From NCBI RefSeq assembly GCF_002591915.1, contig NZ_NIHB01000002.1:380133-444132 (forward strand): a DNA stretch of 64,000 nt. The letters run 5' to 3'. Source of the stretch: Marinicella litoralis. GTDB lineage: Bacteria > Pseudomonadota > Gammaproteobacteria > Xanthomonadales > Marinicellaceae. Made by a program: the position numbers and the translations under genes. Below, one piece after another: positions 24,425 through 62,518 of this stretch. Position 1 is the stretch's first letter, and every line of letters starts with the position of its first letter. The notes beneath the pieces were generated by a model, which ran no database searches, was not told where the DNA came from, and saw nothing but the letters and a program-made list of their open reading frames with translations.

Positions 24425-24475
24425 GCAGTGTGGTTAAAATTAAATTTCATTTTCCATAAAAACCACCAGTCAAAT

Positions 24476-26134
24476 ATGTTGCAATCCTTGTACATCAAGA
24501 ATTTTGTTTTGATCGAACAGTTAGAAATAGATTTCCATCCAAGAATGTCTGTCTTTACTGGAGAAACAGGCGCAGGTAAATCCATCATCATTGGCGCCCT
24601 GTCAATGGCCTTGGGAAACCGGGCCGACACACAAGCGATTGGACCCTTTGACGAACAAAGTGAAATCATTGCTGAATTCGTGATTGCCAACAACCCCAGT
24701 GCCCATGATTGGCTACAAGAACAAGACTTGTTAAATGGTGATGAATTGATTATCCGAAGAACCTTCAATCGCCAAGGCAGAAGTAAACAATGGGTGAATG
24801 GTCGCCCGACACCTTCGGGAATGGTTAAAGAACTGAGTCAGTTTTTAGTGCAAATTCATGGACAACACGACCAAATCAGATTACTAAAAAACCAAAATCA
24901 ATTACAGATTTTAGACCAAGCCGGTGATTTTGATTTGTTACTAAAACAAACCCAAGAAGCCGTTAAACACATACATGCCATCGAACAACAGCTTGAAGAT
25001 CTGCAGGCTGCAGGGTCTATGAGCCACGATCAAGTTCAGTTGTTACAATACCAATTTGATGAATTGGAACAACTGGCGTTGGCAGACAATGAATATGAAT
25101 CACTGCACCAATCATTAAAAACGGCTGCCCATGCCCAAGAATTAACACAAAATATTGACGACTCCATTCAGCGACTCAGCGCCGACGACTCCAGTGTTGA
25201 AGTACAATTAGGCCACATCATCAACAAATTAAAACTGGCCAAAGGCCATGATTTCAGTGTTGTTTGCCAAATGCTTGAAGAATCATTGATCAATGTCAAT
25301 GAAGCACAGAATGAGTTGCAATCGGTGTTGGAAGCCATTGAAAACAATCCAGATGACTTGCAGCAAATTGAAAGTCGCATTGAACAGATCAGTCACATCG
25401 CCAGAAAACAAAATGTGATGCCTGAACTGTTATTTCAACAACATCAGGATTTGAGTGAAACATTACAAACCCATGCTGACTTAGCCATTAACCAGCAAAA
25501 GCTCAACGATGACCTTGATTCAGCCTTGAACAAATACCGATCATTGGCCGCGAAACTATCAACCCAACGCAAAAAATCAGCCCAAGATTTATCGAATAAA
25601 ATCACCACCATGATTAAGCAACTGGGCTTACCCGAAGCGCAATTCAGTATCCAGGTCGAATTACAAGACGACGCCAAACCCAAAATGTTGGGCAATGATC
25701 ACATTGAGTTTATGATTGCAGCCAACAAAGGACAGTCTGCACAGCCCTTAAATAAAACCGCCTCAGGTGGTGAATTGTCACGCATTTCATTGGCCATCGA
25801 AGTCAGTACCCAACAAGATCAATTACAACAAGCCTTTATTTTTGATGAAGTGGATACCGGTATAGGCGGCGCCACTGCTGAAAAAGTGGGCCACATCATG
25901 CAACAACTCAGTAACAACAACCAGGTTTTTGCCGTCACCCACTTGCCACAAGTCGCCGGACATGCCCATGATCATTTATTGGTCAGTAAATCCAGTCAAG
26001 GCAAGTACACCACCTCTGTGATAGAACACTTGTCTACAGAACAAAGGATTCAAGAGCTGGCCAGAATGTCTGGCGGACAGAACATCACTGATGCCACACT
26101 GGCACAAGCCAAAGAATTTTTAAAAACGGGTTAA
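24476..26134 (+). CDS. recN: DNA repair protein RecN
   Basis: A 552-residue SMC-like ATPase involved in double-strand break repair. Walker A is GETGAGKS near residue 30, a central coiled coil fills about residues 150-370, and the C-terminal half holds ASGGELSRISLA (signature) and FDEVDTGIGGATAEKVG (Walker B). The ATG at 24476 starts at the fold (MLQSLYIKNFVLIEQ); a further in-frame ATG at 24428 is unlikely. It is divergent from grpE, a common arrangement in gammaproteobacteria. I could not find a convincing LexA box upstream. Confidence 0.95.
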   Translation: MLQSLYIKNFVLIEQLEIDFHPRMSVFTGETGAGKSIIIGALSMALGNRADTQAIGPFDEQSEIIAEFVIANNPSAHDWLQEQDLLNGDELIIRRTFNRQGRSKQWVNGRPTPSGMVKELSQFLVQIHGQHDQIRLLKNQNQLQILDQAGDFDLLLKQTQEAVKHIHAIEQQLEDLQAAGSMSHDQVQLLQYQFDELEQLALADNEYESLHQSLKTAAHAQELTQNIDDSIQRLSADDSSVEVQLGHIINKLKLAKGHDFSVVCQMLEESLINVNEAQNELQSVLEAIENNPDDLQQIESRIEQISHIARKQNVMPELLFQQHQDLSETLQTHADLAINQQKLNDDLDSALNKYRSLAAKLSTQRKKSAQDLSNKITTMIKQLGLPEAQFSIQVELQDDAKPKMLGNDHIEFMIAANKGQSAQPLNKTASGGELSRISLAIEVSTQQDQLQQAFIFDEVDTGIGGATAEKVGHIMQQLSNNNQVFAVTHLPQVAGHAHDHLLVSKSSQGKYTTSVIEHLSTEQRIQELARMSGGQNITDATLAQAKEFLKTG

Positions 26135-26190
26135 TACTTTATAAAGCATCTTATAGTAAGATAACTTATGAGCCAATCGACACAAATCTT

Positions 26191-27327
26191 ATGTATAAAA
26201 TCATTGTATTAGCCTTTATTTTAACTTGGTATGGAAGTAGCTGGGCCGAACCGCAAACCACTGCTGAACCAACTGAATCATTATCTGCTGAACAATTGGC
26301 TGCAGCTGAAGATGATTTTTCCAAGTGGTTCAACCAGCTCAATGAGCATTTAATCAACTCCAACAACAGCGCTGAAAAAGTCATGGGGTTGGCCGCCATC
26401 ATCAATGCCACCCTCAGCGAAAATAATCAGGGCGTTGATGCCATGGTTACTGACAAGTTGTTAAAAAACTTATCAGATATAATGAATGAAATCATCAATC
26501 AAGATGATTTGTCTGAAACCACCTTGGACATGTTGGCCTCATGGTGTTTCAGACCAAAACTGAAAGTCTATTGTGACCATGACGCCTTATTGGACAAACA
26601 ACTCAAAGGATCACCGGATAATTTAAATGTATATTTGATGCCGTTGAATATTGCCTTAGAGCAGCAGGACCAAACATTGATTATGCAAATCATTGGTCGC
26701 ATGTCTGAAGCCAAACGCAGCCACCACAGCCATTACATCACCCCAGAATTCAGCCAAATGATAGATCAGTACATCGCCGAAAACCCAATACCCACAAGTT
26801 ATGTTGCAGCGTTCAAAGATGACAAGGCTTTGTTATCAGGCTTGTCACTTGAAAAACAAGGGCAGGCAGATGCTTTGATCAACGCTTATTTTCCAACTTC
26901 GATTAAAATGTCTTATGTGTTTTTAAACACCACACCAGCATTCAGACCTTTGTATCAAGTTTGTCAATCCAATAAAGCCACCTTCGTCCAATGCTTACAA
27001 ATCACCCAAATCCTCATCAACCAGAGCAACTCATTGATCGCCAGGGGCGTAGGTTATGCCACCTTGATGGCGATGCATGAAAGTCGAGGAAAAGCGGATT
27101 TATTAAAAACGGTTGGTGAAAAACACGAAGCCTACAAAGCCAAAGTCCAATGCTTATCCAGAACGGTTCAAACTGTTAATTTCATTGAAAACTTCCTGGA
27201 CCCAGCCTACCAAAAAATAAACCTGCAGCCAATTGACGAACTTGAACGAAAACAACAATTGGCTGAATATGTTTACAATAAATACAAAGACAAGCATGCA
27301 GACTTGAAGGATCCAAAAGATTGTTAA
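26191..27327 (+). CDS. Exported helical protein of unknown function
   Basis: A 378-residue protein with a signal peptide (MYKIIVLAFILTWYGSSWA), then an acidic, alanine-rich and largely helical mature part. Cysteines occur in a mid-protein pair (SWCFRPKLKVYCDHD) and near residues 253-265 (QVCQSN, VQCLQ), and a final one ends the chain (DPKDC), suggesting disulfides in the periplasm. TPR-like helical repeats are plausible but no clear motif is seen. I do not recognise the family. It follows recN by 56 bases on the same strand, but shows no link to DNA repair. Confidence 0.6.
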   Translation: MYKIIVLAFILTWYGSSWAEPQTTAEPTESLSAEQLAAAEDDFSKWFNQLNEHLINSNNSAEKVMGLAAIINATLSENNQGVDAMVTDKLLKNLSDIMNEIINQDDLSETTLDMLASWCFRPKLKVYCDHDALLDKQLKGSPDNLNVYLMPLNIALEQQDQTLIMQIIGRMSEAKRSHHSHYITPEFSQMIDQYIAENPIPTSYVAAFKDDKALLSGLSLEKQGQADALINAYFPTSIKMSYVFLNTTPAFRPLYQVCQSNKATFVQCLQITQILINQSNSLIARGVGYATLMAMHESRGKADLLKTVGEKHEAYKAKVQCLSRTVQTVNFIENFLDPAYQKINLQPIDELERKQQLAEYVYNKYKDKHADLKDPKDC

Positions 27328-27345
27328 GCATTTAATTGATTAGTA

Positions 27346-27421
27346 TGGCGCGCCCAGCAGGAGTCGAACCTGCGACCTACCGCTTAGGAGGCGGTTGCTC
27401 TATCCACTGAGCTACGGGCGC
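27346..27421 (-). tRNA. tRNA-Arg (anticodon CCU)
   Basis: On the minus strand the sequence folds as a full cloverleaf: acceptor GCGCCCG pairing with TGGGCGC, a D arm GCTCAGTGGATAGAGC, an anticodon stem ACCGC/GCGGT around the loop CTCCTAA with anticodon CCT, and a T arm GCAGG-TTCGACT-CCTGC. The discriminator is G and CCA is encoded. It decodes AGG. A truncated second copy lies about 220 bases away. Confidence 0.93.
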
Positions 27422-27477
27422 GTTGCTATGGGCTGGCTATTCTATTCGTTGTTGCTGATTTCTGCAAATACGACAGC
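27367..27477. repeat. Direct repeat copy A (tRNA-Arg 5' part plus flank)
   Basis: This 111-base stretch recurs at 27587-27697 with three mismatches I can count, at an offset of exactly 220. It covers the tRNA-Arg gene from its T loop to its 5' end and then the flank GTTGTTGCTGATTTCTGC, which in the other copy is the end of the TolB-like gene. Confidence 0.9.
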
Positions 27478-27586
27478 GGTTTTTTAATCAGTATACAGAC
27501 TCCTCCTGCAGGAGTACTCCGGGCATCCTGCCCTTCGCCCTACGGGTCCGCTGCGCGGGGTTGAATTGTTCCCGACAATTCAATCA
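27478..27586. repeat. GC-rich structured insert between the tRNA repeats
   Basis: A 109-base spacer, more GC-rich than its surroundings, with stacked inverted repeats: CTCCTGCAGGAG at 27503-27514, GGGCA/TGCCC at 27521-27533, and TTGAATTGT/ACAATTCAA (27561-27569 and 27575-27583, loop TCCCG). The last hairpin abuts the broken T arm of the partial tRNA. It looks like a small non-coding mobile or repetitive element; I cannot name the family. Confidence 0.6.
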
Positions 27587-27641
27587 AACCTGCGACCTAC
27601 CGCTTAGGAGGCGGTTGCTCTATCCACTGAGCTACGGGCAC
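27587..27641 (-). pseudogene. Truncated tRNA-Arg(CCU) copy
   Basis: Matches the intact tRNA from the 5' acceptor (here GTGCCCG instead of GCGCCCG) through the D and anticodon arms to the start of the T arm. There the sequence diverges into the GC-rich insert, so the 3' T strand, the 3' acceptor strand and CCA are missing. It cannot form a mature tRNA unless the insert supplies pairing, which I do not see. Confidence 0.85.
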
Positions 27642-27697
27642 GTTGTTATGGGCTGGCTATTCTATTCGTTGTTGCTGATTTCTGCAAACACGACAGC
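27587..27697. repeat. Direct repeat copy B (partial tRNA-Arg plus gene end)
   Basis: Second copy of the 111-base repeat. It contains the truncated tRNA and the last twelve or so codons of the TolB-like gene (ending AEISNNE), which are therefore duplicated beyond the gene near the intact tRNA. Confidence 0.88.
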
Positions 27698-28567
27698 AAT
27701 TTTATTGCTGCTGGGATTGGTGGTGACTCGACTGATTTGATGTAATTTAGGGTCGTTGAATTCATGGGCAATGAACCACCTTTTCTGATCCAAACTGACA
27801 TATAAAGTGTTGTCTCGACCGGCCCAAAATCGTCCTTGGGTGTCCAAAGTAAAGTCTTCTACTCCAACAGGTAATCCCATCACATCAACCACTGCTGCTT
27901 TCGAAGTTCTCGATTTAATTCGCCATGGCTGGGTGTTTTTATCTACATAGTAAATACTTTGGTTGCTGGCATCAGTGATGAATGAACGTCCCACATTTTC
28001 TGCCAATTTCTCAGCCTCTAAATCAGCGCCTTGAATATACAAATCGCCACCGTTGTTGTCATTTAACATAAAACTCCAAACCACTTTTCCTTGGGTCCAA
28101 TTAAAATAACCGACTTGTTTTAGATCACTGTATCGCTTGGCTTCTTCATTTTTCTGTAACAACACCAAGTATTGATCGCCATTGGCGTCGACTTGAACCA
28201 CACTGATGCCATTGGCTTCTGGCATGGGTGTTGGTGAGTACTCGCTTTCCGCCGTGGCAATATAAACAGTGGTTTTGCCGGTGGTAACGTCGTATTGATT
28301 GATGTCCATTTGACCACTGGAATCGTCGAAATGCGTATAGTAAATCAATGCGCCATCGTTGGAAAATCGAGGTTGTGAATCATAACCCGGTGAATGGGTG
28401 ATGTTAATCCCATTTGAAAGGGTAACCGCACCACTGTCATTGACTTTATAATCGAACAATAAAATTTCACTGCCTGGTGGTGTCGGCGCAGTTACTGGCT
28501 CAACCAATTTTGATTCTTCAGCAAATATTTGAAAACTCAATAAACTCAGCAAGACTATTTTTTTCAT
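27662..28567 (-). CDS. Exported TolB/WD40-like beta-propeller protein
   Basis: A 301-residue exported protein with signal peptide MKKIVLLSLLSFQIFA. Repeated segments such as SQPRFSNDGALIYYTHFD, then STYSPTP-like and TLDTQGRFWAGRDNTLYVS resemble propeller blades of the TolB type (PRFSxDGxxIYY). The start at 28567 overlaps the crcB stop in an ATGA junction; an upstream frame to 28603 would lie inside crcB. Function is unknown; the operon context (lolA-rarA-crcB) does not suggest a specific role. Its 3' end is part of the tRNA-associated repeat. Confidence 0.75.
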   Translation of the reverse strand: MKKIVLLSLLSFQIFAEESKLVEPVTAPTPPGSEILLFDYKVNDSGAVTLSNGINITHSPGYDSQPRFSNDGALIYYTHFDDSSGQMDINQYDVTTGKTTVYIATAESEYSPTPMPEANGISVVQVDANGDQYLVLLQKNEEAKRYSDLKQVGYFNWTQGKVVWSFMLNDNNGGDLYIQGADLEAEKLAENVGRSFITDASNQSIYYVDKNTQPWRIKSRTSKAAVVDVMGLPVGVEDFTLDTQGRFWAGRDNTLYVSLDQKRWFIAHEFNDPKLHQISRVTTNPSSNKIAVVFAEISNNE

Positions 28568-28929
28568 GATTTTACTCCCAACCAAAATGCAAAAAAACAA
28601 CAAACCGTCGTCACCAAAGTATAAGCAATGGCTTTAAATAGCTGATCATTTTGGATCATAAGCACGGTTTCCATAGAGAAAGTAGACCACGTGGTCAATG
28701 CACCCAACAAACCCACAGTGATGAACAAGCGCAATGCTTCATTGATGGCTGCTTGTTGATTGAAGTAATCAAAAGCCATTCCCATCAGAAAACAACCCAC
28801 CACATTCACCATCAGGGTGGCCCAAAACAAAGGCACGTGCAATGCATGTAGGGCCAGTTGATTGATGCCAAATCGAACCGAGGCCCCTAAAGCACCGCCT
28901 ATGGCAACCGCGATGATTGAATTGATCAT
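28564..28929 (-). CDS. crcB: Fluoride channel CrcB (Fluc)
   Basis: A 121-residue membrane protein with four transmembrane helices, the size of Fluc/CrcB fluoride exporters that work as dual-topology dimers. Typical segments are GGALGASVRFGINQ near the start, TLMVNVVGCFLMG, and GLLGALTTWSTFSME, where the central TTxST motif lines the sodium site and pore. It overlaps rarA by four bases upstream and the TolB-like gene by four downstream, so it is cotranscribed rather than controlled by its own fluoride riboswitch. Confidence 0.93.
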   Translation of the reverse strand: MINSIIAVAIGGALGASVRFGINQLALHALHVPLFWATLMVNVVGCFLMGMAFDYFNQQAAINEALRLFITVGLLGALTTWSTFSMETVLMIQNDQLFKAIAYTLVTTVCCFFAFWLGVKS

Positions 28930-30224
28930 TGTGGCTTTTTATTCATATGTTGTGACCTCTGGTTTCTGATGTGGTTTAACTTTTCAGCAATTTTAGCTTC
29001 TAAACCCACATTTTTAGGTAAATAGTATACCTGTTCATTGATACCATCTGGAAATCCTGATTGGCCCAAATCAATGCCACCTTCGACATCATGGTCATAT
29101 TGATAACCAGCACCAAAGCCCTGCTGCTTCATCAATGATGTCGGCGCATTACGCAAATGCATTGGCACCGGTTGAGTGCCAAACTGTAGCACATCAGCCT
29201 GTGCAGCTTTGAATGCAGTATAAATGGCGTTACTCTTGGCGCAACAGGCTAAATAAGCCACAGCTTGTGCCAACAACAGGTCACCTTCCGGAGAACCCAA
29301 TCGCTCATAAGCTTGCCAAGCATTGAGACAGATACTCAAGGCCCTGGGATCAGCAATGCCTATGTCCTCACTGGCCATCCGTACAACCCTTCTGGCGATG
29401 TAGTTGGGATCACACCCGCCGTCTAACATGCGGGCCAACCAATACAAGGCCGCATCAGGATTTGAGCTTCTGACACATTTGTGCAAGGCTGAAATTTGTT
29501 CATAAAATTCATCGCCCCCACGATCAAAGCGTCTGGTTTGACCGGAAGTCACCAATTCAATGTCTTGGTCTTTAACCACATCATCGCTGATGCAATCCAG
29601 CAGAATTTCAAACAATCCCAATAATTTCCTGCCATCACCATCTGCGGCCCTGACCAAGGTCAATAATTGCTTGTCACTGATGGTTATATCTAACTTGAGC
29701 GCACTTTGCGTTTGCTGCAATAAATGCAACAAATCATCTTCACTTAAACTTTTTAAAATATAGACTTTTAACCGCGATAACAAAGCATTGTTTAAGGCAA
29801 AAGAAGGATTTTCAGTGGTCGCACCGATCAGAGTAATCAGGCCACTTTCCAGGTGTGGCAAAAAAGCGTCTTGTTGTGATTTATTGAAACGGTGGATTTC
29901 ATCAACAAACAGCACTGTTCTTTTGGGCAATGCTTGCTTGGCTTGATTGATGGCATCTCTGATGTCTTTGACCCCAGAAAGCACCGCCGATAAATTAATC
30001 AGCTGTGCATTCATCGCTTGACTGATTATTCTGGCCAAAGTGGTTTTACCGGTTCCTGGCGGACCCCAAAAGACCATTGAATGGATGGTTTTATTTTTCA
30101 GCATCAAAGCCAGGGGTTTGCCATCAGCAACCAGGTGTTGTTGCCCTACGATTTCTGCCAATCGACTGGGTCTGAGTCGATCTGCCAGCGGCTGATTGGC
30201 ACTGTCAATTATTTCCTCAAACAA
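28926..30224 (-). CDS. rarA: Replication-associated recombination protein RarA (MgsA)
   Basis: A 432-residue AAA+ ATPase related to clamp loaders and eukaryotic WRNIP1. Walker A is GPPGTGKTT, Walker B is VLFVDEIHRFNKSQQD, sensor 1 is IGATTENPSF, and the C-terminal tetramerisation domain includes LARMLDGGCDPNYIARRVVR. It acts at stalled replication forks. The order lolA-rarA is conserved with E. coli; the gap to lolA is three bases. Confidence 0.95.
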   Translation of the reverse strand: MFEEIIDSANQPLADRLRPSRLAEIVGQQHLVADGKPLALMLKNKTIHSMVFWGPPGTGKTTLARIISQAMNAQLINLSAVLSGVKDIRDAINQAKQALPKRTVLFVDEIHRFNKSQQDAFLPHLESGLITLIGATTENPSFALNNALLSRLKVYILKSLSEDDLLHLLQQTQSALKLDITISDKQLLTLVRAADGDGRKLLGLFEILLDCISDDVVKDQDIELVTSGQTRRFDRGGDEFYEQISALHKCVRSSNPDAALYWLARMLDGGCDPNYIARRVVRMASEDIGIADPRALSICLNAWQAYERLGSPEGDLLLAQAVAYLACCAKSNAIYTAFKAAQADVLQFGTQPVPMHLRNAPTSLMKQQGFGAGYQYDHDVEGGIDLGQSGFPDGINEQVYYLPKNVGLEAKIAEKLNHIRNQRSQHMNKKPQ

Positions 30225-30227
30225 GAC

Positions 30228-30899
30228 TCATTCACCGATGGCTTGGATCACATCAACACCTTCTGGTGGAGTGAATTGAAACAACTGTTGGTCTAAATCT
30301 GGGTTTTTCTCAATTTGTGCAAATTCAAACACCATAATTTGGTCATAAGTATTGAATACCTTGATGGTCGATATGGCATTATTTTCAACCGCCAACCAGA
30401 CATATTTCACATCTTCAGACTCTTCTCGCGGGGTCAAACTGATCCAGTCTATCTGCTTATCAGTGGTCACATACCTGATGTCATAATGCTGTTGCGACAA
30501 TTCATCATTGATGATGACGTAAATTGGATTCAAATTATTGTTTTGTTGTTTAACCGTCACTTGCTCCAGATCTTCGTCATAAACCCATACCTGAGAACCA
30601 TCTGCAACAATCAATTGTTCTATCGGGTCAACGTACTGCCAGCGGAATTGACTGGGTGTTGCCATCCAAACAGTGCCTGAGTTGATGTCCACTTTTTTAT
30701 TGCTTTGCGTTAATTCATATTGGGTAAATTCTGCCTTCAAGGTGGATAAATCGGCCCTGACTGCTGCCAACACCACCATGGGATCTTTTGCACCTGCCAC
30801 CAAAGGTGGTTGGGTGACTTCTTCAGCGCTGGTATCTGCAACAGCTGATAAAGGCAACGAGGCCACGAAAAGCAACAACACTGGTATCAATATTTTCAT
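30228..30899 (-). CDS. lolA: Outer-membrane lipoprotein carrier LolA
   Basis: A 223-residue periplasmic chaperone that ferries lipoproteins from LolCDE to LolB. The signal peptide is MKILIPVLLLFVASLPLSAVA. The mature part has the Lol fold pattern: AEFTQYELTQSNKKVDINSGTVWMATPSQFRWQ-like strands (written here as a descriptive span at about residues 60-92), ADGSQVWVYDEDLEQVTV, and the C-terminal PEGVDVI that is conserved in LolA. It is slightly longer than usual because of a polar insert after the signal. A start at 30902 is equally possible. In relatives lolA follows ftsK directly; here the surface-protein block intervenes. Confidence 0.92.
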   Translation of the reverse strand: MKILIPVLLLFVASLPLSAVADTSAEEVTQPPLVAGAKDPMVVLAAVRADLSTLKAEFTQYELTQSNKKVDINSGTVWMATPSQFRWQYVDPIEQLIVADGSQVWVYDEDLEQVTVKQQNNNLNPIYVIINDELSQQHYDIRYVTTDKQIDWISLTPREESEDVKYVWLAVENNAISTIKVFNTYDQIMVFEFAQIEKNPDLDQQLFQFTPPEGVDVIQAIGE

Positions 30900-31116
30900 C
30901 ATTAATTTCAAGTTAAAATGACATTTTAACCAATCAAGCTGAACTTGCGCTAAATAATTTAGTTGATTCATTTCATATCAGCCCATGTTTCTCTGTTTGA
31001 CTCAATAACAATTTAATTAGGTGCGTCATTCTTGTCAATATTTCAAATATTTCTTGCTCAATTTAAATCAGTTTTTAAGTATCGATGTCACTGAATTTAA
31101 AACATTTATTATTTAA

Positions 31117-31145
31117 TTGACATTGTTTTACAAATCAATTATCTT
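31117..31145 (+). promoter_or_regulatory. Promoter of the giant surface protein gene
   Basis: A perfect -35 TTGACA (31117-31122), a 17-base spacer and a -10 TATCTT (31140-31145, four of six consensus bases). This would start transcription near 31152, giving a leader of about 88 bases. Confidence 0.62.
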
Positions 31146-31239: not shown

Positions 31240-34200
31240 ATGTCTTATCGTTCAACTGCTTTGGTGTGTTTCGGATTGTTGCTGTTCTCTGTCATTTCTC
31301 AAGCACAAAACAGGTTTTATCATGTGTACGTTGACAATGATGCCAATGCTGCTACCGGATGTGTGGTTAATTTACCAGATTTTTCCAGCACCATAGAGGG
31401 CGTACAGTCCAGATTAACAATCACCACCGACAGTGCCTTGCCACCCAACATCGTTTCAACCCAAATTCATCAATGCGATGGTCTAAATTTCAATGCAGGC
31501 ACTGCAAGCGCAGCGGCAGCCCTTGGCCTGAATACCGGTGATGCCGGCGCTGATGTCTTTGAAGCAGCCATCAGCACATTGGATTTAAGCATCCATGCCT
31601 CTGGCAATGCCCTGTTCTATTTTGTGACCGAATCTGACACTGCCGGTGACGTTGTTTTGAATCATGCCAATGGCGGTCCGATAATCTTGGGTTTTGTGTT
31701 TCCAGTACCTGCTATGGGCTTATTGGCATTGACTGTATTGTTACTGATTTTATTGATAACGGTCAGAAGAAGTTTATCCAGAAACATCACCATCAGCATG
31801 GTATTAATCTGCGTATCAACATGGGTTTGGGCCATGAACATCATCATTGATGGTCAAACCACTGATTGGAACGGCATCAATCCTGCCAATACCGACCCCA
31901 TCAATGACACCTCAGCACCCGGCAGCTATGCAGATTTAACGGCTGTATTTTTGACCAAATCATCTGATGATGTATTTATAAGAATGGATGTGCTTGATGT
32001 TGAAAACCAAGCGCCCATTGCCAATGCCAGCAGTGACACTACGCTTGAAGACAATGCAGTCACCATCACTGTGACCGGTTCTGACCCCGAAGGTTCGCCC
32101 ATCACTTTTTCCGTTGACACAGCGCCTGCCAATGGCTCACTCGGCACATTCACTGTTGTAAACAACACCTCTTCAACTATTCAATATACCCCGGACCCAG
32201 ATTTTAACGGGTCTGACAGCTTCACCTTTGTCGCTAACGATGGTCAAATCAATTCAGCACCAGCCACCGCTGCTGTCACGATCACGCCAGTTAACGACAT
32301 GCCCAGCTTTACCGATGGTGGTGATATCACTGTTGATGAAAACAGCGGTATTTACAACAACACTTGGGCCACTGACATCTTGGCTGGCCCAGCCAACGAA
32401 AGCGCTCAAATCCTCACATTCAATATCGTGAATGTGACCAATGCAGGCTTATTTTCGACGCCTCCAACTGTCGATGCAAACTCAGGCAATTTGAGTTTTA
32501 CCCCAACTACAGATGTTTTTGGGACCTCAACAGTCACTATCAATTTGATGGATGATGGCCTCACTGCCAATGGAGGCATAGATACATCAGCCAACATCAC
32601 TTTTGACATCGTTGTTGAAGAAGTGAATGATGCGCCTGTACTGGCCAACATTCCTGATCAAACGGTTGACGAGCTTACCTTGTTGTCGTTCACAGCCACT
32701 GCCACTGATGCCAACGTACCGGCTCAGAACTTGACTTTCAGTTTGGGTGGTACAGTCCCTGCTGGTGCGGCCATCACGACTGGTGGCGACTTCAGCTGGA
32801 CCCCCACAGAAGAACAAGGGAGCACAGGCACTTTTAGCTTTGATGTCATTGTGACTGATGATGGCACCAATCCAGATGACTTAAGTGATTCTCAATCCAT
32901 CAACGTCACTGTCAACAAGGTCAATTCAGCACCTGTGCTTACGGCCATTGGACCACAGACAGTAGATGAACTGAATAATTTGTCATTCAATGCCGCTGCG
33001 AATGATACTGATTTACCGGCCCAGAACTTAAGCTTCACCTTATCTGGAACGGTGCCAAGTGGCGCAACCATATCAAATACAGGTGCATTCAATTGGACGC
33101 CTACGGAAGCCCAAGGTGGCAATGCCTATACTTTTGATGTAGTGGTAACTGACGATGGTGTCAATCCACCAAACTTATTCGATTCAGAAACCATCAATGT
33201 GACTGTGAACGAAGTCAATTCGCCACCAGTTTTGAATCCAATCGGCAACACCACCTTCGATGAAGAAACCCTGCTCAGTTTCAATGCCATGGCAGTTGAC
33301 ACAGATAACCCAGCACAAACACTGACATTCACCTTAGCGGGTGCTGTGCCAACTGGTGCGGTCATTACGACTGGTGGCGCATTCAGTTGGACACCCACTG
33401 AAGCCCAAGGGCCTGGCGTCTATTCATTCAATGTAGTAGTTACAGACAATGGCAGCAACCCTAATAACCTGAGTGATTTTGAAACCATTAGCCTAACGGT
33501 CAACGAAGTCAATGTAGCGCCAGTGGCGAACGCACAAACAACCACAACAGATGATGAAACACCGCTGACCATTACCTTAACCGGCAGTGACGCTGAAGGC
33601 AGCTCATTGACCTTTTCTATTGCTACTTCACCGGCCACTGGCTCCTTAGGTACAATCACTCAATTGACGACGACTTCAGCTTCGGTGACCTATACGCCGG
33701 GTGCTGTGGGCAACAATGACTTTACCTTTACAGTATTTGACGGTGAACTGAACAGCAGTCCAGCAACAGTCAGCCTGAATGTCACCAGTTCAAACTTACC
33801 GCCTGTTGCCTCTGATGATTCTTATGATGTCACTGGTAATGTTGGGCTCACTGTGCCTGTTGCTGCTGGTGTGGTATCCAACGACAATGATCCTGATCTA
33901 GATACATTGACTGTCACTGCGTTTGATGCAAGCAGTGCTCAAGGCGGCGCAGTGAGTGTCAATGCCAACGGCAGCTTCACTTACAGCCCTCCGGTGGGTT
34001 ATACCGGTGCTGACAGTTTTGCTTATACCATGTCAGATGGCGAATTCAGTGATTCTGCCACTGTCAGTTTAACCATCAGTGACAGGCTGTGGTTTGTCGA
34101 TAACAGCGCAGGTGCTGCTGGCAATGGTACCTTGACCAACCCATTCAGCACCCTGGCTGAGTTCGATACAGTCAACGGCAATGCCGGCATTGCCAACCCA

Positions 34201-36912
34201 GCTGCTGGTGAATGTGTGTTCTTGAATGAAACAGGCAGTGGTAACTACGTCGGTCCGGTCACTTTGTTGCCCGGTCAATCCATGATTGGCAAAGCCTCCT
34301 CAGTCTCAGCACCAGCACTTTGTGGCATCACTTTGGCAACACACAGTACGCCATTACCAGCCATTAACGGCACTGCACCTACTGTCACAAGTGCAAGCAT
34401 CGGCATCAATTTAGCAGCAGACAATACATTGCGAGGATTTGATGTTGGCGACACCACAGATACTGACCTCAATGCCTCAGTCAATGTAGGCACGCTAGCC
34501 ATTTCAGAAATGTCCTTGTTAGGCAATGGCCGCGCATTGAACCTGGCTGCAGGTGGTACTTTAAATGTAGCGCTTGATCAACTGATATCGTTCAATGGCA
34601 CCAATGGCATCAATTTATCTAATGTGGGTGGCGTATTTACCGTGGCCAATGGCACGACCATTGACGCAAGCGCAACCAATGGAATTTATATCCTAAACTT
34701 GGCACCAGGAGCTGTCTATAATTTTGGCAACACCAATGTAACCAATAGTGGCTTTAATGGCATCCAAATTTATGCCGATGCAGGCTCCAATGTGATTTTT
34801 AATCAACTGAACATCAGCAACCCAACTAACTTTGCTTATTTTCAATTTGGTGGTGAACTGAATACATCATCTGGCAGCATCAATGCGCCCAACTCTACGG
34901 CCTTTGATCTAGAAAATGCTATTGCCAATGTGAATTTGACTACCGTTTCAGGCAACAACAACAGTGGTTCAGGAATCAAACTTGACAACAATACTGGCAC
35001 CATCAATTTAGGCAACGGTGCTGTTACAAGCACCGGTTCAGGCATTGTTTTTGATGTGGGTGGTGCTGCCAATGCTTCTGGCGGATCAGCAATCATCACT
35101 TACAATGGGGATATCACCAGTACAGGAACTGGACGATCTGTTCAGATTGAAGAATTGACAGGCGGCAGCATCACACTGAACGGCACCATCACAGAATCCT
35201 CCAATGGTATCCGTATCCAAGGTATCAACAACGGTGCAGCAGCCAGCGTTAACTTTGCAGGCAATGTGACAGCCAATACGATAACCAACACGGCGATTGA
35301 TTTGGGGTCAGCAGTGGGCAACACCAATGGCACCATCAATTTTACCGGTGTACTTGATATTGACACCACATCCGGCAATGGATTCAATGCATTGAATGGT
35401 GGTACTGTGAATGTCAGCGGATCATCTAACACCATTAACACCACCACAGGTACAGCCATCAATATTCAAAATACCAATATTGGCGCTTCCAATCTGGTTT
35501 TCCTCAGTGTATCAGCTGGTACGACAACAAATTCAGCAGGTGCTGGAATCAATCTCAATACCACTGGAACATCAGGTGGGCTGATGATTACTGGAACAGG
35601 AACCACAGCAGGTTCTGGCGGAACCATCCGCAACAAGTCCGGAGCCAATGGAAACAATTCTGAGGGCATTGGTATAACTTTGAACAACACATCCAATGTA
35701 CAATTATCCAACATGCAATTGAATGATTTTGACAACTTTGCCGTTCGAGGAATCAGTGTCAACGGCTTTACCATGACAGACTCTATAGTCAGCGGAATCA
35801 GCGGTAACAGCAGTGCTGTTGATGAAGCTGCCATTAAATTCACCAATTTAACAGGTACCTCTGTCTTTGCTGGCAATAACATTTCAGGCGGCTTTGAAGA
35901 TCAGGTAAACATCATCAACGACACAGGCATTGCCAATATCAGTGTTGTTGACAGTGCCAATGATGCTGCTGTCATCGGTTTAGATGCGGTGCCAACCAGT
36001 AACAATGGGAACGACGGTTTGTTGGTTGAATCTCAAGGTGCTGCCATGGTCACACTGACAGTGGCAGGTGTTGAATTCGCTGGCGCCAGGGGTGATATGC
36101 TGCAGACCAATGCCATAAACACTTCCAATCAAACCATTTTAGCCCAAAGCAATTTCTTTAATAACACCCACCCCAACATCGTTTCAGGCGGTGGTGGCAT
36201 CACAGTATCAGGTGGTGGAGCGACCAGTGGTTTTACCCAAGGCTATGATGTTGAGGATTCCAACTTTTCAGGTGCTGTAGGTAATGCGGTGACGGTTAAT
36301 TATGTTTCTGGAAGCGGAACCATCAGTGGCGCCTTAAGTCGCAATAATGTGGGACTCAATGACGTGGCTGGATCTGGCTCAATTGAAGCCAGTGGAATCA
36401 GTGTTGGCGCCTCACAAATGACCCAGCACAACACCACTTTAGACCTCAACATCATTCGTGGCATCAATGGATATAGCGGCATTGATACAATTGCCAACAC
36501 TGATGTTAATTTCAATGCCACCATAACCAATAATACAGTGGAACAATTAGCTGGATTCGCATTTGCTGCGATGACTAATTTAGTTGGTGGAGTTGGCACC
36601 GAAACCGGCACCGCCTGTTTGGATGTCAGGAACAACACTTTTGATGCCAGTGCTTCACCTTTTGCCGGTAATGCGGTGTTCAAAGATCAAATCAGTGGCT
36701 CCGCCAATTATAATTTACCTGGGTATAGTGGCTCAGCAAGTGGCGAGTTTGCCATTGCCTGTGCAGCAGGAACAGCCAGCGTTGATACCGGTCTCCACCA
36801 TATGGGTAACGGGAACACCATGATTAATGGAGCATTCTCAACATATCCAACCGGGGTAGACGCTTCTGCAGTTTGTGGAAAAACTGGTATAGGTACATCT
36901 TGTCCGCCATAA
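31240..36912 (+). CDS. Giant secreted Ig/cadherin-repeat and beta-helix protein
   Basis: A 1890-residue surface protein. A signal peptide (residues 1-22) leads into a small domain (24-150). Then comes a sorting-signal-like stretch at 155-178: PVPAMG, a hydrophobic helix and an RR pair. A second hydrophobic segment ending WVWA (to about 198) follows, like a second signal peptide. Next are about seven cadherin/Ig-like modules starting near residues 257, 351, 462, 561, 658, 755 and 853, with repeated VN..APVL and EAQG motifs. From about 950 to the end is a long Gly/Asn/Thr-rich right-handed beta-helix, beginning LWFVDNSAGAAGNGT. There is no clear C-terminal anchor; the last residues hold two cysteines. 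It is probably an adhesin or matrix component and lies 72 bases before the tail-collar genes. Confidence 0.85.
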   Translation: MSYRSTALVCFGLLLFSVISQAQNRFYHVYVDNDANAATGCVVNLPDFSSTIEGVQSRLTITTDSALPPNIVSTQIHQCDGLNFNAGTASAAAALGLNTGDAGADVFEAAISTLDLSIHASGNALFYFVTESDTAGDVVLNHANGGPIILGFVFPVPAMGLLALTVLLLILLITVRRSLSRNITISMVLICVSTWVWAMNIIIDGQTTDWNGINPANTDPINDTSAPGSYADLTAVFLTKSSDDVFIRMDVLDVENQAPIANASSDTTLEDNAVTITVTGSDPEGSPITFSVDTAPANGSLGTFTVVNNTSSTIQYTPDPDFNGSDSFTFVANDGQINSAPATAAVTITPVNDMPSFTDGGDITVDENSGIYNNTWATDILAGPANESAQILTFNIVNVTNAGLFSTPPTVDANSGNLSFTPTTDVFGTSTVTINLMDDGLTANGGIDTSANITFDIVVEEVNDAPVLANIPDQTVDELTLLSFTATATDANVPAQNLTFSLGGTVPAGAAITTGGDFSWTPTEEQGSTGTFSFDVIVTDDGTNPDDLSDSQSINVTVNKVNSAPVLTAIGPQTVDELNNLSFNAAANDTDLPAQNLSFTLSGTVPSGATISNTGAFNWTPTEAQGGNAYTFDVVVTDDGVNPPNLFDSETINVTVNEVNSPPVLNPIGNTTFDEETLLSFNAMAVDTDNPAQTLTFTLAGAVPTGAVITTGGAFSWTPTEAQGPGVYSFNVVVTDNGSNPNNLSDFETISLTVNEVNVAPVANAQTTTTDDETPLTITLTGSDAEGSSLTFSIATSPATGSLGTITQLTTTSASVTYTPGAVGNNDFTFTVFDGELNSSPATVSLNVTSSNLPPVASDDSYDVTGNVGLTVPVAAGVVSNDNDPDLDTLTVTAFDASSAQGGAVSVNANGSFTYSPPVGYTGADSFAYTMSDGEFSDSATVSLTISDRLWFVDNSAGAAGNGTLTNPFSTLAEFDTVNGNAGIANPAAGECVFLNETGSGNYVGPVTLLPGQSMIGKASSVSAPALCGITLATHSTPLPAINGTAPTVTSASIGINLAADNTLRGFDVGDTTDTDLNASVNVGTLAISEMSLLGNGRALNLAAGGTLNVALDQLISFNGTNGINLSNVGGVFTVANGTTIDASATNGIYILNLAPGAVYNFGNTNVTNSGFNGIQIYADAGSNVIFNQLNISNPTNFAYFQFGGELNTSSGSINAPNSTAFDLENAIANVNLTTVSGNNNSGSGIKLDNNTGTINLGNGAVTSTGSGIVFDVGGAANASGGSAIITYNGDITSTGTGRSVQIEELTGGSITLNGTITESSNGIRIQGINNGAAASVNFAGNVTANTITNTAIDLGSAVGNTNGTINFTGVLDIDTTSGNGFNALNGGTVNVSGSSNTINTTTGTAINIQNTNIGASNLVFLSVSAGTTTNSAGAGINLNTTGTSGGLMITGTGTTAGSGGTIRNKSGANGNNSEGIGITLNNTSNVQLSNMQLNDFDNFAVRGISVNGFTMTDSIVSGISGNSSAVDEAAIKFTNLTGTSVFAGNNISGGFEDQVNIINDTGIANISVVDSANDAAVIGLDAVPTSNNGNDGLLVESQGAAMVTLTVAGVEFAGARGDMLQTNAINTSNQTILAQSNFFNNTHPNIVSGGGGITVSGGGATSGFTQGYDVEDSNFSGAVGNAVTVNYVSGSGTISGALSRNNVGLNDVAGSGSIEASGISVGASQMTQHNTTLDLNIIRGINGYSGIDTIANTDVNFNATITNNTVEQLAGFAFAAMTNLVGGVGTETGTACLDVRNNTFDASASPFAGNAVFKDQISGSANYNLPGYSGSASGEFAIACAAGTASVDTGLHHMGNGNTMINGAFSTYPTGVDASAVCGKTGIGTSCPP

Positions 36913-36984
36913 CATGTAACATTGTGTCACTAATGAATGTTTTTTATAGTATAATTATATAGGTATATCAATAGGGGAAATATC

Positions 36985-37479
36985 ATGTCAGAACCATTTT
37001 TGGCCGAAATCAGGATGATGGGCTTTAATTTTGCACCCAGGGGTTGGGCCTTTTGTGATGGGCAGATTCTACCCATCAGTCAAAATCAATCATTGTATTC
37101 ATTGTTGGGTACCATATATGGTGGTGATGGCAGGACTACGTTTGCGCTTCCAGAATTACGTGGCAGAACCCCTATTCATGTTGGTAATGGACATACCCAA
37201 GGCCAGAAAGCGGGTGAAGAAAACCACACCTTAGCTGCTGCAGAAATGCCGGCACATAACCACATCACTTCAGCTTCAACCAACAATGGTAACAACCCAA
37301 TTCCTGTCGACAACACTTTAGGAGCCATTAACAATGGATATAACTCAGGTACTGACTTGTTAACCATGACCAATGAAGTATTGAATTCGGGTGGTGGGCA
37401 AGCGCACAACAACATGCAGCCCACATTGGTTGTGAATTTTTGTATAGCCCTTCAAGGCTTGTTTCCATCTAGAAATTAG
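36985..37479 (+). CDS. Phage-tail-collar-type protein 1 (MdpB-like)
   Basis: A 164-residue protein of the tail-collar (Tail_collar/MdpB) type. It begins MSEPFLAEIRMMGFNFAPRG and has WAFCDGQILPISQNQSLYSL, YGGDGRTTFALPELRGR, the histidine pair AHNH, and a C-terminal AHNNMQPTLVVNFCIALQG ending FPSRN. In phages this fold forms fibre or collar trimers; in many bacteria such genes occur without phage. A strong AGGGGAA site (36973-36979) precedes the ATG, and a lone TATAAT (36950-36955) may be a -10. It has no signal peptide. It is the most divergent of three tandem paralogues. Confidence 0.88.
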   Translation: MSEPFLAEIRMMGFNFAPRGWAFCDGQILPISQNQSLYSLLGTIYGGDGRTTFALPELRGRTPIHVGNGHTQGQKAGEENHTLAAAEMPAHNHITSASTNNGNNPIPVDNTLGAINNGYNSGTDLLTMTNEVLNSGGGQAHNNMQPTLVVNFCIALQGLFPSRN

Positions 37480-37488
37480 GAGTCTATT

Positions 37489-38007
37489 ATGTCAGAACCA
37501 TTTGTAGGAGAAATCCGCATGTTTGCTGGGAACTTTGCCCCCCGAGGCTGGGCATTCTGTGACGGCCAATTATTAGCCGTCTCACAAAATGACGCCCTTT
37601 TTTCATTACTAGGAACCGTATATGGAGGGGATGGGAGAACCACATTTGGACTGCCTGATATGCGTGGACGCATTCCTAATCACGCAGGAACGGGCCCTGG
37701 CCTGAGCCAAAGAAGGTTGGGGGAAAAGTATGGGACTGAAACTGTAACCTTAACAGTCAATCAGCTGCCATCACACCAACATGATTTTCAAGCGTCAACT
37801 GCGCCCGGGTCAGAAAACAACCCGAATGGTCAATATTTGGCTGCATCACCCAATGTCAGGTTACTCAGGCCTGTACCACCCAATGCAAATTTGCTGAACA
37901 CCTCAGTTAATAACACCGGCGGAAGTCAAAGCCATAACAACATGATGCCGTATTTATGTGTGAATTTTATAATCGCCTTATTTGGCATTTATCCATCAAG
38001 ACAATAG
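37489..38007 (+). CDS. Phage-tail-collar-type protein 2 (MdpB-like)
   Basis: A 172-residue paralogue of the preceding gene, starting nine bases after it. The N-terminal half is strongly conserved (MSEPFVGEIRMFAGNFAPRG, WAFCDGQLLAVSQND, YGGDGRTTFGLPDMRGR), the C-terminus repeats HNNMMPYLCVNFIIALFG with IYPSRQ, and the middle (about residues 95-145) is variable, as expected for a tip or binding region. The collar motif SHQHDF replaces AHNH. Probably made from the same transcript and assembled into homo- or heterotrimers. Confidence 0.9.
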   Translation: MSEPFVGEIRMFAGNFAPRGWAFCDGQLLAVSQNDALFSLLGTVYGGDGRTTFGLPDMRGRIPNHAGTGPGLSQRRLGEKYGTETVTLTVNQLPSHQHDFQASTAPGSENNPNGQYLAASPNVRLLRPVPPNANLLNTSVNNTGGSQSHNNMMPYLCVNFIIALFGIYPSRQ

Positions 38008-38017
38008 GAGCAAAATC

Positions 38018-38542
38018 ATGTCAGAACCATTTATAGCTGAAATCAGAATATTTGCCGGTAATTTTGCACCCAGAAGCTGGGCATTTTGTAATGGGCAGTT
38101 ATTACCAATTGCACAAAACACAGCCTTATTTTCCTTGATAGGGACCACTTATGGTGGCGATGGCAGAACCACCACCGCACTACCCAACTTACAAGGCAAG
38201 GCACCTATGCACCCAGGAAGAGGTCCAGGATTAACTTCTCGGCGCTTGGGGCAACAAGGCGGCGCTGAAACAGCCACTGTTACTGCAGCACAAATGCCTT
38301 CCCACAACCACAACTTAGGGGCATCAACATCACCTGGTTCAACCTTTGCACCAACTGACACCACAGTGTTGTCCAGAAGTGTTGGCGGCAATGTTTATGA
38401 TGATACCGATAACTTAGGTGCCGACATGAATGCTGGCACATTATTAAATACCGGTGGCTCACAACCACACAACAACATGCAACCCTTTCTGGCCATCAAT
38501 TACATCATCGCCTTACAAGGTTTATACCCAAGCAGGAGTTAA
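38018..38542 (+). CDS. Phage-tail-collar-type protein 3 (MdpB-like)
   Basis: A 174-residue third paralogue. The start at 38018 gives the shared MSEPFIAEIRIFAGNFAPRS opening and follows a GGAG site ten bases after the previous stop; a frame reaching 37982 would run into gene 2. It shares GPGLTSRRLGQQGG with gene 2 and ends HNNMQPFLAINYIIALQG, YPSRS. Its variable middle differs from both siblings. The trio plus the following small protein and acetyltransferase reads as one operon. Confidence 0.9.
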   Translation: MSEPFIAEIRIFAGNFAPRSWAFCNGQLLPIAQNTALFSLIGTTYGGDGRTTTALPNLQGKAPMHPGRGPGLTSRRLGQQGGAETATVTAAQMPSHNHNLGASTSPGSTFAPTDTTVLSRSVGGNVYDDTDNLGADMNAGTLLNTGGSQPHNNMQPFLAINYIIALQGLYPSRS

Positions 38543-38544
38543 TC

Positions 38545-38892
38545 ATGAACAGAAGAATATTTGCCAAGTCTGTAATGGGCACAATGGGTATTTCCCTGAT
38601 TGTGGCACCATCATTGGCTGCAATCAAAAGCAAGCAACATGTGTTTGAAGCCGGTCATCAAATGACCAGTGACGAAGGCTTAAAAATGAGCCTCAGTGGA
38701 CACTCATTACCCACTGCCAACAAAGACCATAAACAATTTGTGTTAACCTTTGATGTGGAAAATCCCAATGGTTATTTAGATGAAAAAATATACCATTTAA
38801 TCGACCACAATGGAAAAAAGCATCAAATATTTATGTCTCCTGTAGATAAAAACAAATTACAAGCTGTGTATAACTGGAGAACCAATGCCTGA
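38545..38892 (+). CDS. Small exported protein with Tat-like signal (DUF6916-like)
   Basis: A 115-residue protein starting two bases after collar gene 3. Its N-terminus MNRRIFAKSVMGTMGISLIV has a twin arginine followed by IFAK, resembling a Tat signal (RRxFxK), and then a hydrophobic stretch. The mature part (about residues 28-115) contains LKMSLSGHSLP, FVLTFDVENPN, and KIYHLIDHNG, a pattern I associate with the DUF6916 family found beside tail-collar genes. A related protein is encoded convergently at 39406. Function unknown; Tat export would suggest folding before secretion. Confidence 0.7.
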   Translation: MNRRIFAKSVMGTMGISLIVAPSLAAIKSKQHVFEAGHQMTSDEGLKMSLSGHSLPTANKDHKQFVLTFDVENPNGYLDEKIYHLIDHNGKKHQIFMSPVDKNKLQAVYNWRTNA

Positions 38893-39400
38893 TGACTGGC
38901 TGGCTTATCAAAACAATTCAAAGCTGATTCAATCAGACATAACATTCAAAGCCATCTCTGATAAAGACATGGCTTTTTTGTGTGAATTGTATGCCACTAC
39001 TCGATGGGAAGAAGTATTGCAGGCGCCATGGAATGACCAGCAGCGCCTTGATTTTTTAAAGCAACAATTCGAAGCACAGCACAAGCATTATTTAAGCCAT
39101 TATCCAAAAGCTGAAAAACTGATAATCAAACAAAACAAGAAACAAATTGGTCGAATATATATTGATCGAGATGAAACCTCGATTTGTTTGATTGATGTGG
39201 CCATATTACCGTCACATCGTGGACATGGACTGGGTACTCAGTTGCTGCAAGAACTATTGATAGAAGCACAAGATGACAACAAAAAAGTGGTCATTCACGT
39301 TGAAAACTTCAACCCGGCTTATGCCTGGTACCTCAAGCACGGCTTCAAACAAGTAGAAGACAAAGGTGTGTATCAATACATGGAATGGTATCCTGAATAA
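38885..39400 (+). CDS. GNAT-family N-acetyltransferase
   Basis: A 171-residue acetyltransferase overlapping the previous gene by eight bases. It has the GNAT core: strand DVAILPSHRGHG with the acetyl-CoA loop RGHGLGTQLLQELL, then VVIHVENFNPAYAWYLKHGF, the motif B arm typical of the family. There is no signal peptide, so it acts in the cytoplasm. Overlap and co-orientation with the tail-collar genes suggest that it modifies a product of this locus, for instance the collar proteins or the small exported protein before they leave the cell. This is inference. Confidence 0.85.
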   Translation: MPDDWLAYQNNSKLIQSDITFKAISDKDMAFLCELYATTRWEEVLQAPWNDQQRLDFLKQQFEAQHKHYLSHYPKAEKLIIKQNKKQIGRIYIDRDETSICLIDVAILPSHRGHGLGTQLLQELLIEAQDDNKKVVIHVENFNPAYAWYLKHGFKQVEDKGVYQYMEWYPE

Positions 39401-39405
39401 AGTTT

Positions 39406-39732
39406 TTATGTGAATACAGCTTCGTAATGAACTTCTTTTTCATCACCAAAAACTGGCACCAAAAACAATTCAAACACACCCAATTTTGCATGAGAAACTG
39501 CATACACTCCTTGCTCATAAACCTGTGGGCCTGCCGTTAAAAACACCACTGAAAACTGTTTTGAATTTTGTTTAACCATTGGTGCTGTACTGGTATTGAT
39601 CTCTTTGATATGACATTGGCTTTTGTTCTGTCCATCAAAATCAATCTCAAAAACGTCATCAATATGGGCTTCAAATAATTCTTTATCTGGCAGTGACATA
39701 CAATTAAATTTATGTGGCTTAAGGTATGACAA
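39406..39732 (-). CDS. Small protein related to the exported DUF6916-like protein
   Basis: A 108-residue protein encoded convergently to the acetyltransferase, only five bases away. It contains FSVVFLTAGPQVYEQGVYAVSHAKLGVFELFLVP-like strands (residues about 60-95) and ends EVHYEAVFT, a layout parallel to the smaller exported protein of the operon (strands ending FMSPVDKN). Unlike that protein it has no signal peptide. It may be a cytosolic chaperone or a diverged partner. Confidence in the family is moderate. Confidence 0.62.
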   Translation of the reverse strand: MSYLKPHKFNCMSLPDKELFEAHIDDVFEIDFDGQNKSQCHIKEINTSTAPMVKQNSKQFSVVFLTAGPQVYEQGVYAVSHAKLGVFELFLVPVFGDEKEVHYEAVFT

Positions 39733-60770: not shown

Positions 60771-60784
60771 ATAGTTACTCTCAT

Positions 60785-61312
60785 TTATTCTTCTTTCAAT
60801 GCCATAGCTGCTTCACGTTCACGCCAAGCGCCTAGTCCATCATTCAACCATTCAATAATTTTAATTTCATTTTCATATATTTCGGAAACAACACCGTGAT
60901 TGTGTCCAAGATAATGTCCAACTGAAACCCTATGGATTGTTCCATCAGGATCAACAACCAATCCCCAATAATTTCCTTCTTGTTCGTATGTACCAACCAT
61001 CAATAAACTATCCAGTGGATAAGATTCAAGGAATTCTTTGCGTCGAGTTAAGTCTGGCCCTTTGCCTGTTTCTGCAAACGAAGATGTTTCATTGGATTCA
61101 CTGTCATCTTGTTCTTCTAAATCATTAGAAAACGGGTCTCTGAATCCATTGGCATTGTACTCAAACACTTCATGCGGCTTTAACTGAGGCAATGGATCTA
61201 TTTGTGGCACAGGAATGTTTTTATGTCGCTCCATAAATTCATTGATGTCTTCTAATCCGTTGTTACAACCACCCAACAGCATGACCAACGACAATAAATA
61301 TATCGCCTTCAT
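60785..61312 (-). CDS. pilP: Type IV pilus lipoprotein PilP
   Basis: A 175-residue lipoprotein with signal MKAIYLLSLVMLLGGC and lipidation at Cys16. The C-terminal half is the beta-sandwich that contacts PilQ and PilNO: YPLDSLLMVGTYEQEGNYWG, VVDPDGTIHRVSVGHYLG and GVVSEIYENEIKIIE. The N-terminal linker is acidic and proline-rich. It overlaps pilO by four bases (ATGA). Confidence 0.93.
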   Translation of the reverse strand: MKAIYLLSLVMLLGGCNNGLEDINEFMERHKNIPVPQIDPLPQLKPHEVFEYNANGFRDPFSNDLEEQDDSESNETSSFAETGKGPDLTRRKEFLESYPLDSLLMVGTYEQEGNYWGLVVDPDGTIHRVSVGHYLGHNHGVVSEIYENEIKIIEWLNDGLGAWREREAAMALKEE

Positions 61313-62516: not shown

Positions 62517-62518
62517 AA

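Follow-up and report, generated by a model that had tools for sequence, protein, structure and literature searches.

The 64,000-nucleotide stretch of the Marinicella litoralis genome analysed here (the window; contig NZ_NIHB01000002.1, with all coordinates given as positions within the window) carries at 31240-39732 a locus that encodes a giant secreted protein, three small proteins with the tail-collar domain of phages, a small protein with a twin-arginine translocation (Tat) signal, a GNAT acetyltransferase and a DUF6916 protein. We regard this locus as an instance of a surface-attachment module that is widespread and encoded by cells, not by phages, and in which a head made of three collar types, A, B and C, would work with the giant, and we give this reading a probability of about one half. 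That these genes form a module, and that its collars come as a 1:1:1 set, is well supported.

Open reading frames (ORFs) and Pfam searches confirmed the gene content reported in a preliminary description of this DNA. The giant (1890 residues; 31240-36912, plus strand) has Big_9 and cadherin domains in Pfam, a tand_rpt_95 match and homologous giants beside the trio elsewhere. It is followed on the same strand by collar A (164 residues, beginning MSEPFLAE; 36985-37479; PF07484, E 1.3e-28), collar B (172 residues, beginning MSEPFVGEIRMF; 37489-38007; E 1.4e-30) and collar C (174 residues, beginning MSEPFIAEIRIF; 38018-38542; E 2.6e-27), the start of the last being set at the ATG at 38018, in agreement with its paralogues, where the ORF list had a TTG at 37982. 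All three score 95-105 bits against a PF07484 curated cut-off of 24, and their weak matches to Gp10_C (PF21939) exceed the Pfam cut-off for collar A only. Next come the DUF6916-like protein with the Tat signal MNRRIFAKSVMGTMGISLIVAPSLAA (38545-38892, plus strand; PF21880 E 9e-5, under the cut-off), the GNAT (38885-39400, plus strand; Acetyltransf_7 E 2.5e-13) and, convergent with them, the DUF6916 protein (39406-39732, minus strand; PF21880 E 1e-20, 74 bits; 97 residues if begun at the ATG at 39699). The spacing is operon-like, with 72 bp between the giant and collar A, subsequent gaps of 9, 10 and 2 bp, and an overlap of 8 bp between the end of the Tat-protein gene and the start of the GNAT gene.

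When the three collars were searched against genome contigs, at least 563 relatives were obtained, the best 80 of which, together with the window, make up the 81 loci of set 1, a set biased toward close relatives; the less biased sample (set 2) consists of 299 Pseudomonadota genomes, some of which may be in both sets. The titles of the records bearing the module span at least nine phyla and include Pseudomonadota, Acidobacteriota, Bacteroidota, Chloroflexota, Planctomycetota and Paenibacillus, as well as metagenome-assembled genomes of Pedosphaera (Verrucomicrobia), Actinomycetes, Acidimicrobiia and Desulfocapsa, with Deinococcus added through a plasmid record; since several records are metagenome-assembled, individual phylum labels can be wrong. 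Iterated hidden Markov models (HMMs) found at least three collar genes in 80 of the 81 loci of set 1. A GNAT, always of a single family, is encoded in 74 of the 81 stretches, 73 times no more than 3 kb from the collars, and DUF6916 in 62, 59 times within that distance; the misses of these two are partly edge effects because many contigs are short. Collar trio, GNAT and DUF6916 co-occur across genomes. In Ruegeria sp. TM1040 (TM1040_RS01845-RS01875) the order is giant, three genes annotated as 'tail fiber', a hypothetical gene, the GNAT and another hypothetical gene; further named examples are Deinococcus ficus, Paenibacillus amylolyticus, Sinorhizobium meliloti, Comamonas antarctica and Rhizobium bangladeshense, and Spirosoma oryzicola, where no GNAT is annotated, has a gene annotated as a formyltransferase. 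In set 2 a collar (E 1e-20 or better) occurs in 51 of the 299 genomes: 25 carry one or, in three cases, two tandem trios, 21 a single match, three a tandem pair, one a pair at a contig end and one a pair lying apart, and one of the single-match genomes (G247) reveals three weaker collars. DUF6916 occurs in 36 of the 299, and 35 of these 36 also have a collar (hypergeometric p ~4e-32), not always beside it (at a distance of about 46 kb in G051).

The preliminary description took the three collars for close paralogues; related PF07484 proteins they are, and they belong to three ancient types, of which each locus has one. In a quick IQ-TREE tree of 242 collars these types form clades A, B and C, with supports of 94, 71 and 98 in the Shimodaira-Hasegawa-like approximate likelihood-ratio test, and each clade contains the M. 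litoralis collar of that name. In 75 of the 81 loci each type is present exactly once, in the order A-B-C in 66, C-B-A in four, B-C-A in three and B-A-C in two. This permuted order with constant content points to a functional set and not to a frozen duplication, and the age of the clades led us to reject a recent tandem duplication of one collar. Another locus (L009) has two complete A-B-C sets, separated by a GNAT and a DUF6916 gene, and five loci fall outside the rule: one lost its type A through the trimming pattern (L020), one lies at a contig edge (L057), two are divergent (L069 and L083), and in L055 the type C (88 residues), cut by a contig end, was excluded from the tree. When the set-1 HMMs were applied to the sample, 21 of 27 triples proved to contain each type once, compared with 6 of 27 expected by chance if types were random and equally frequent (p ~1e-9).

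The three types have also evolved together: over 69 loci, the pairwise distances of A, B and C correlate with one another at 0.84-0.90 and those of the collars with the neighbouring GNAT at 0.33-0.37, and the correlations among collars are still 0.82-0.88 once the GNAT share is removed. Each type has an HxH motif (plus strand; 37255-37263 in collar A, 37774-37782 in collar B and 38303-38311 in collar C) whose two histidines are invariant across 56 aligned collars, as are the histidine and the last asparagine of an HNN motif; the longer form P-x-H-x-H is found in 71/78 A, 69/79 B and 76/79 C collars. In T4 fibre tips, residues of this sort coordinate a metal on the threefold axis. Pseudomonadota also have a single-collar variant (about 180-260 residues; among L166-L221) with DUF6916 and GNAT, at several loci together with DUF4347-type giants. 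Of 22 single collars in the tree, 19 group together, nested among the cellular collars (support 90); the single collar as ancestor of the trio is not supported, although the root of the tree is weak.

A giant is the recurrent neighbour of these heads. We counted as extracellular-type giants those proteins of at least 700 residues with low lysine plus arginine and high serine plus threonine, asparagine and glycine, and one of them adjoins the collar block (within about 1.4 kb) in 51 of the 81 set-1 loci, so that giant and trio do co-occur in other genomes; the ORFs were called mechanically by script, and some long ones in GC-rich loci may be in the wrong frame. In the sample, a giant lies no more than 1.5 kb from the collars in 25 of the 43 loci that have more than 3.5 kb on both sides, and across all 55 sample loci just four giant-type genes lie farther out than that. 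Among 32 extracellular-type proteins encoded upstream on the same strand, 27 have a cysteine among the last 12 residues and 29 a proline among the last three. The architectures of the giants vary: DUF4347 giants were found in three of five scanned, autotransporter (barrel) giants at L179 and L184, and giants with the tail domain of the type IX secretion system (Por_Secre_tail) at L059, L066 and L073. In Kosakonia cowanii the three collars stand in a gene run with TolC, a giant Ig-like protein and three genes of HlyD type, one of them an M50-HlyD fusion; the two larger of these HlyD-type genes have homologues in the same stretch as collars at L166, L187, L188, L189 and L209. The giants thus differ in architecture and, as far as these domains and neighbours suggest, in export route. 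The occurrence of such different giants next to heads of one kind is the strongest evidence we have for cooperation between head and giant, and this evidence is one of genomic association; from association also comes what support there is for the earlier idea that the collars assemble with the giant or cap it. Giant adhesins with a dedicated exporter (DUF4347/LEPR-type, autotransporter or type IX-sorted) are among the proteins that adjoin collars in other lineages, and we know of no description of ordinary exporter-linked adhesin systems with collar, GNAT and DUF6916 partners.

The M. litoralis giant itself consists of a signal peptide (31240-31305), a small N-terminal domain, an IPTL-CTERM-like mid segment (VPAMGLLALTVLLLILLITVRR; 31705-31770), a second hydrophobic, signal-like membrane segment (ITISMVLICVSTWVWA; 31786-31833), Big_9 and cadherin repeats, a long repetitive C-terminal half and a GTSCPP end (36892-36909), all on the plus strand. 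The signal peptide and the second hydrophobic segment were read from the sequence, and ends rich in Cys and Pro are shared by other giants in this position. The Ig/cadherin part previously proposed is borne out by Pfam, and the beta-helix is unconfirmed, as the C-terminal half gave no Pfam match and residues 941-1890 no sequence match in PDB. In ten N-termini scanned, PF18203 (IPTL-CTERM) was above the cut-off in L021 and L063 and below it in L033, and NF033207 (midcut-by-XrtH) gave 19-33 bits, under its cut-off of 45, in all five relatives that share the plan of the window giant, whose own N-terminus matches neither model. The IPTL-like segment in mid-protein and the exosortase H (XrtH) encoded by the M. 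litoralis genome (TIGR04177, 162 bits against a cut-off of 86) recall the midcut-by-XrtH system; the giants differ from it in scoring below the NF033207 cut-off. XrtH is present in five of the 299 Pseudomonadota genomes, only three of them with the trio (hypergeometric p 0.005), and therefore serves one module lineage at most; as a general partner of the module it was rejected.

Acetylation of a component before export, as envisaged in the preliminary description, is plausible, a lysine target being unlikely. Each collar of the locus has a single lysine, the means of the set-1 types are 1.0-1.5 lysines per collar, and the giant has eight in 1890 residues; these counts disfavour lysine acetylation of collars or giant, and an N-terminal target fits the GNAT better. 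After the methionine the collars have serine or alanine, rarely glycine, then usually an acidic residue or glutamine, and then proline, as judged from 232 pattern-matched collars, the pattern itself demanding Pro4 and Ser, Ala, Gly, Thr or Met at position 2. PDB matches of the GNAT profile include NAA50, RimI and archaeal N-terminal acetyltransferases among other GNATs, and the best NCBIfam model for the GNAT of the locus is RimI, at 38.7 bits against an equivalog cut-off of 86.4, which makes it a generic GNAT by score. Our best guess from these sequences is that the GNAT may acetylate the collars at their N-termini. Between collars and GNAT, nine loci (L015, L019, L022, L024, L026, L027, L032, L050 and L079; by title eight Alphaproteobacteria and one Acidobacteriota) encode a protein of about 430 residues with repeated W-S-x-W and N-A-D-G-R motifs, two of which were scanned and gave no Pfam family above the cut-off. 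A glycosyltransferase is encoded near the trio in L008 (Glycos_transf_1), and a homologue of it in L009.

The AlphaFold2 model of the convergent DUF6916 protein is a helix with a six-stranded barrel (predicted local distance difference test, pLDDT, 88.5). Its best structural match is MrkH (PilZ-type; Z 8.2), with phage neck and neck-like proteins at Z 5-6, and the best Foldseek matches were weak (E 0.13 in PDB and 0.011 among viral models); that a family is missing from this list of matches proves nothing. The Tat-signal protein of the locus scores 22.9 bits, below the 27-bit PF21880 cut-off. A Tat partner, which the preliminary description saw as part of the cluster, is present here and not universal: Tat-signal proteins in the block belong to unrelated families (DUF6916, a periplasmic binding protein and others) and to a minority of loci, and a loose Tat pattern, which overlooked signals visible by eye (e.g., L007, L051, L059 and L066), was found in 27 of 258 genes near collars and in 25 of 512 far from them.

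We propose that these three proteins of about 170 residues, which have little beyond the head domain of the phage tail collar and would be made in equal gene dose, most likely assemble as a single 1:1:1 heterotrimeric head, held together by the conserved HxH and HNN residues. Such a head would work on or with the giant extracellular repeat protein encoded beside it, and its likely job would be the binding of a surface, a glycan or another cell, a function proposed because phage collar domains bind receptors. The GNAT would most likely acetylate the processed collar N-termini (serine or alanine after removal of the methionine), the small DUF6916 beta-barrel would probably be a chaperone or a cap, and the Tat-signal partner may, to speculate, escort the pre-folded head outwards in some lineages. 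It is tempting to go further and see in the module an undescribed class of appendage, spread over at least nine phyla, whose obligate A-B-C head would be capped by a dedicated N-terminal acetyltransferase, exported folded (in some lineages together with a Tat-signal partner) and used as an interchangeable tip on unrelated giants; we put this forward tentatively, and with more doubt than belief.

One alternative to a mixed trimer is that A, B and C each form a homotrimer of their own, the three differing in ligand or position, e.g., stacked along one fibre. Collar domains at phage fibre tips are homotrimeric, T4 gp12-like proteins being known as such, and the single-collar relatives must work without partners; the presence of one of each type in so many loci and their tight co-evolution argue instead for an obligate set, and we consider separate homotrimers rather unlikely, although an obligate set does not in itself separate one mixed trimer from three stacked ones. 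The collars might also be intracellular, as a sensor or as a metal-binding scaffold modified by the GNAT, with the giant only loosely linked. Neither collars, nor GNAT, nor non-Tat DUF6916 proteins carry an export signal, and RhiA, from an operon that also encodes RhiB, is described as cytoplasmic and used as a cytoplasmic marker (PMC2275737, PMC13133039). Against this stand the recurrence of giants of different architectures as neighbours and the very low lysine content that the collars share with the window giant, so that an intracellular role seems improbable. The comparison with rhiABC of Rhizobium leguminosarum is one by description only: RhiB carries a collar domain (PMC13133039), the operon has been linked with growth in the rhizosphere (PMC4149787), and no trio is mentioned in the available parts of these descriptions. 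Solibacter collar paralogues reportedly show signs of positive selection (PMC3174227). The literature searched, which did not extend to bioRxiv, contained no description of the module or name for it, as the preliminary description had supposed, and no paper found there names DUF6916.

It could further be argued that the collars are remnant or domesticated tail-tip genes of a prophage with no defined cellular role, given that they are homologous to tail proteins of phages (PHROG 9116 and others), that seven viral contigs carry tandem collars and that integrase or recombinase genes are annotated in some plasmid stretches. Phage tail-collar proteins (PF07484, PF21939) share the domain, and the PDB matches of the collar profile are phage tail fibres, T4 gp12 among them; the module, unlike them, is encoded by cells, has three fixed types per locus and almost no shaft, and stands beside a GNAT and a DUF6916 gene. 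When the type B collar was searched against 50,697 phage records, 896 matched at 941 places, about one place per record, none of them with 60% identity or more and the top-ranked at 41%; on plasmids it matched 83 records at 172 places, and 15 of the 20 highest-ranking rows have three places each. In a tree with 154 cellular collars, the 14 viral ones used form a branch of their own (support 95); six viral contigs with tandem collars (L086-L091) had been omitted beforehand, a seventh (L116) was not among the 14, and one single-collar row (L221) falls within the viral branch. No GNAT or DUF6916 match was found in 80 viral contigs, the best 80 of 246 relatives. The partners of the cellular collars are conserved in at least nine phyla. 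Pfam detected no capsid, terminase, tail-tube, lysis, integrase, sheath, tube or baseplate gene among 18 flanking or nearby proteins (from 24428-30971 and 39751-63577, a subset of the ORFs of the window; three had no match at the limits used). The PLSDB tables, which are incomplete, likewise annotate no gene as capsid, terminase, tail-tube or lysis in nine plasmid stretches with cellular-type collars, although they list an integrase or recombinase in three of them; a tenth stretch proved to be a regular phage tail region whose collar is more distant, and the phage form therefore exists beside the cellular one. The trio is not chiefly found in prophages, so that neither of the two refuting conditions named in the preliminary description, a trio almost always inside complete prophages and a giant never co-occurring with it, came true. 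A prophage remnant is thus very improbable and already largely refuted, and after these phage, plasmid, viral-contig and flank searches both the prophage and the injection-system readings, which the preliminary description had also set aside, were rejected as the main explanation.

Several findings weigh against the surface-attachment module as we propose it. No signal peptide was detected in any collar here, which leaves their export unexplained; the loose Tat pattern finds genes near collars in just 26 of the 81 loci, and hitchhiking on a Tat partner as a general export route is accordingly unsupported; and the TolC/HlyD set was found in none of the set-1 loci. In 18 of the 43 well-flanked sample loci there is no giant within 1.5 kb. 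Six of the 27 sample triples are not A+B+C (two CBC, two BBB, one BBC and one ABB), 23 of the 55 sample loci have a single collar, and three genomes have only two in tandem; from the single-collar loci and two-collar genomes it follows that three collars are not obligatory. Tandem collars also occur on seven viral contigs, three on L116 and 3, 3, 3, 6, 9 and 3 on L086-L091 (IMG/VR, 2-11 kb, 44-50% identity), the latter six being perhaps cellular DNA called viral because of its collar genes. The model of the collar monomer is poor (pLDDT 62.7), the fold search with DUF6916 gave no firm relative, and GNATs have many substrates, the matches to N-terminal acetyltransferases being generic.

In M. 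litoralis the locus is flanked on one side by lolA, mgsA/rarA and crcB and on the other by a DsrE-like gene, ftsK and alanine dehydrogenase. M. sediminis and M. meishanensis (L004 and L005, the best foreign loci) have this cluster between the same neighbours, and the locus is therefore not a chance assembly. A search of the genome revealed no collar besides the trio and no DUF6916 gene besides the pair of the locus. The promoter-driven cluster of the preliminary description remains unconfirmed, as the promoter scan performed at chance level (the region has 22 promoter-like sites, where 18.6 +/- 4.3 would be expected), with the best upstream candidate at 31117-31145 (10/12). Farther along the window, on the minus strand (58602-63577 and 55838-58582), are pilM, pilO, pilP and a secretin of a type IV pilus, followed by an ORF for a lipoprotein-like protein of 914 residues that ends in PPACTP and has no Pfam match, and then by an HlyD-type gene and two genes for a resistance-nodulation-division pump. 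Taken as a whole, the observation from which this analysis started is confirmed, and its interpretation is supported in part.

Collar genes are annotated as 'tail fiber protein' in the named bacterial records inspected, a label that invites a prophage reading. If they encode the heads of a common cellular attachment structure, this label conceals a part of the surface biology of many phyla. Cells would then have made a complex of three gene products out of a viral homotrimer fold, and thanks to the strict A+B+C rule the question of a mixed trimer can be tested directly and cheaply. The module also gives the DUF6916 family roles to test.

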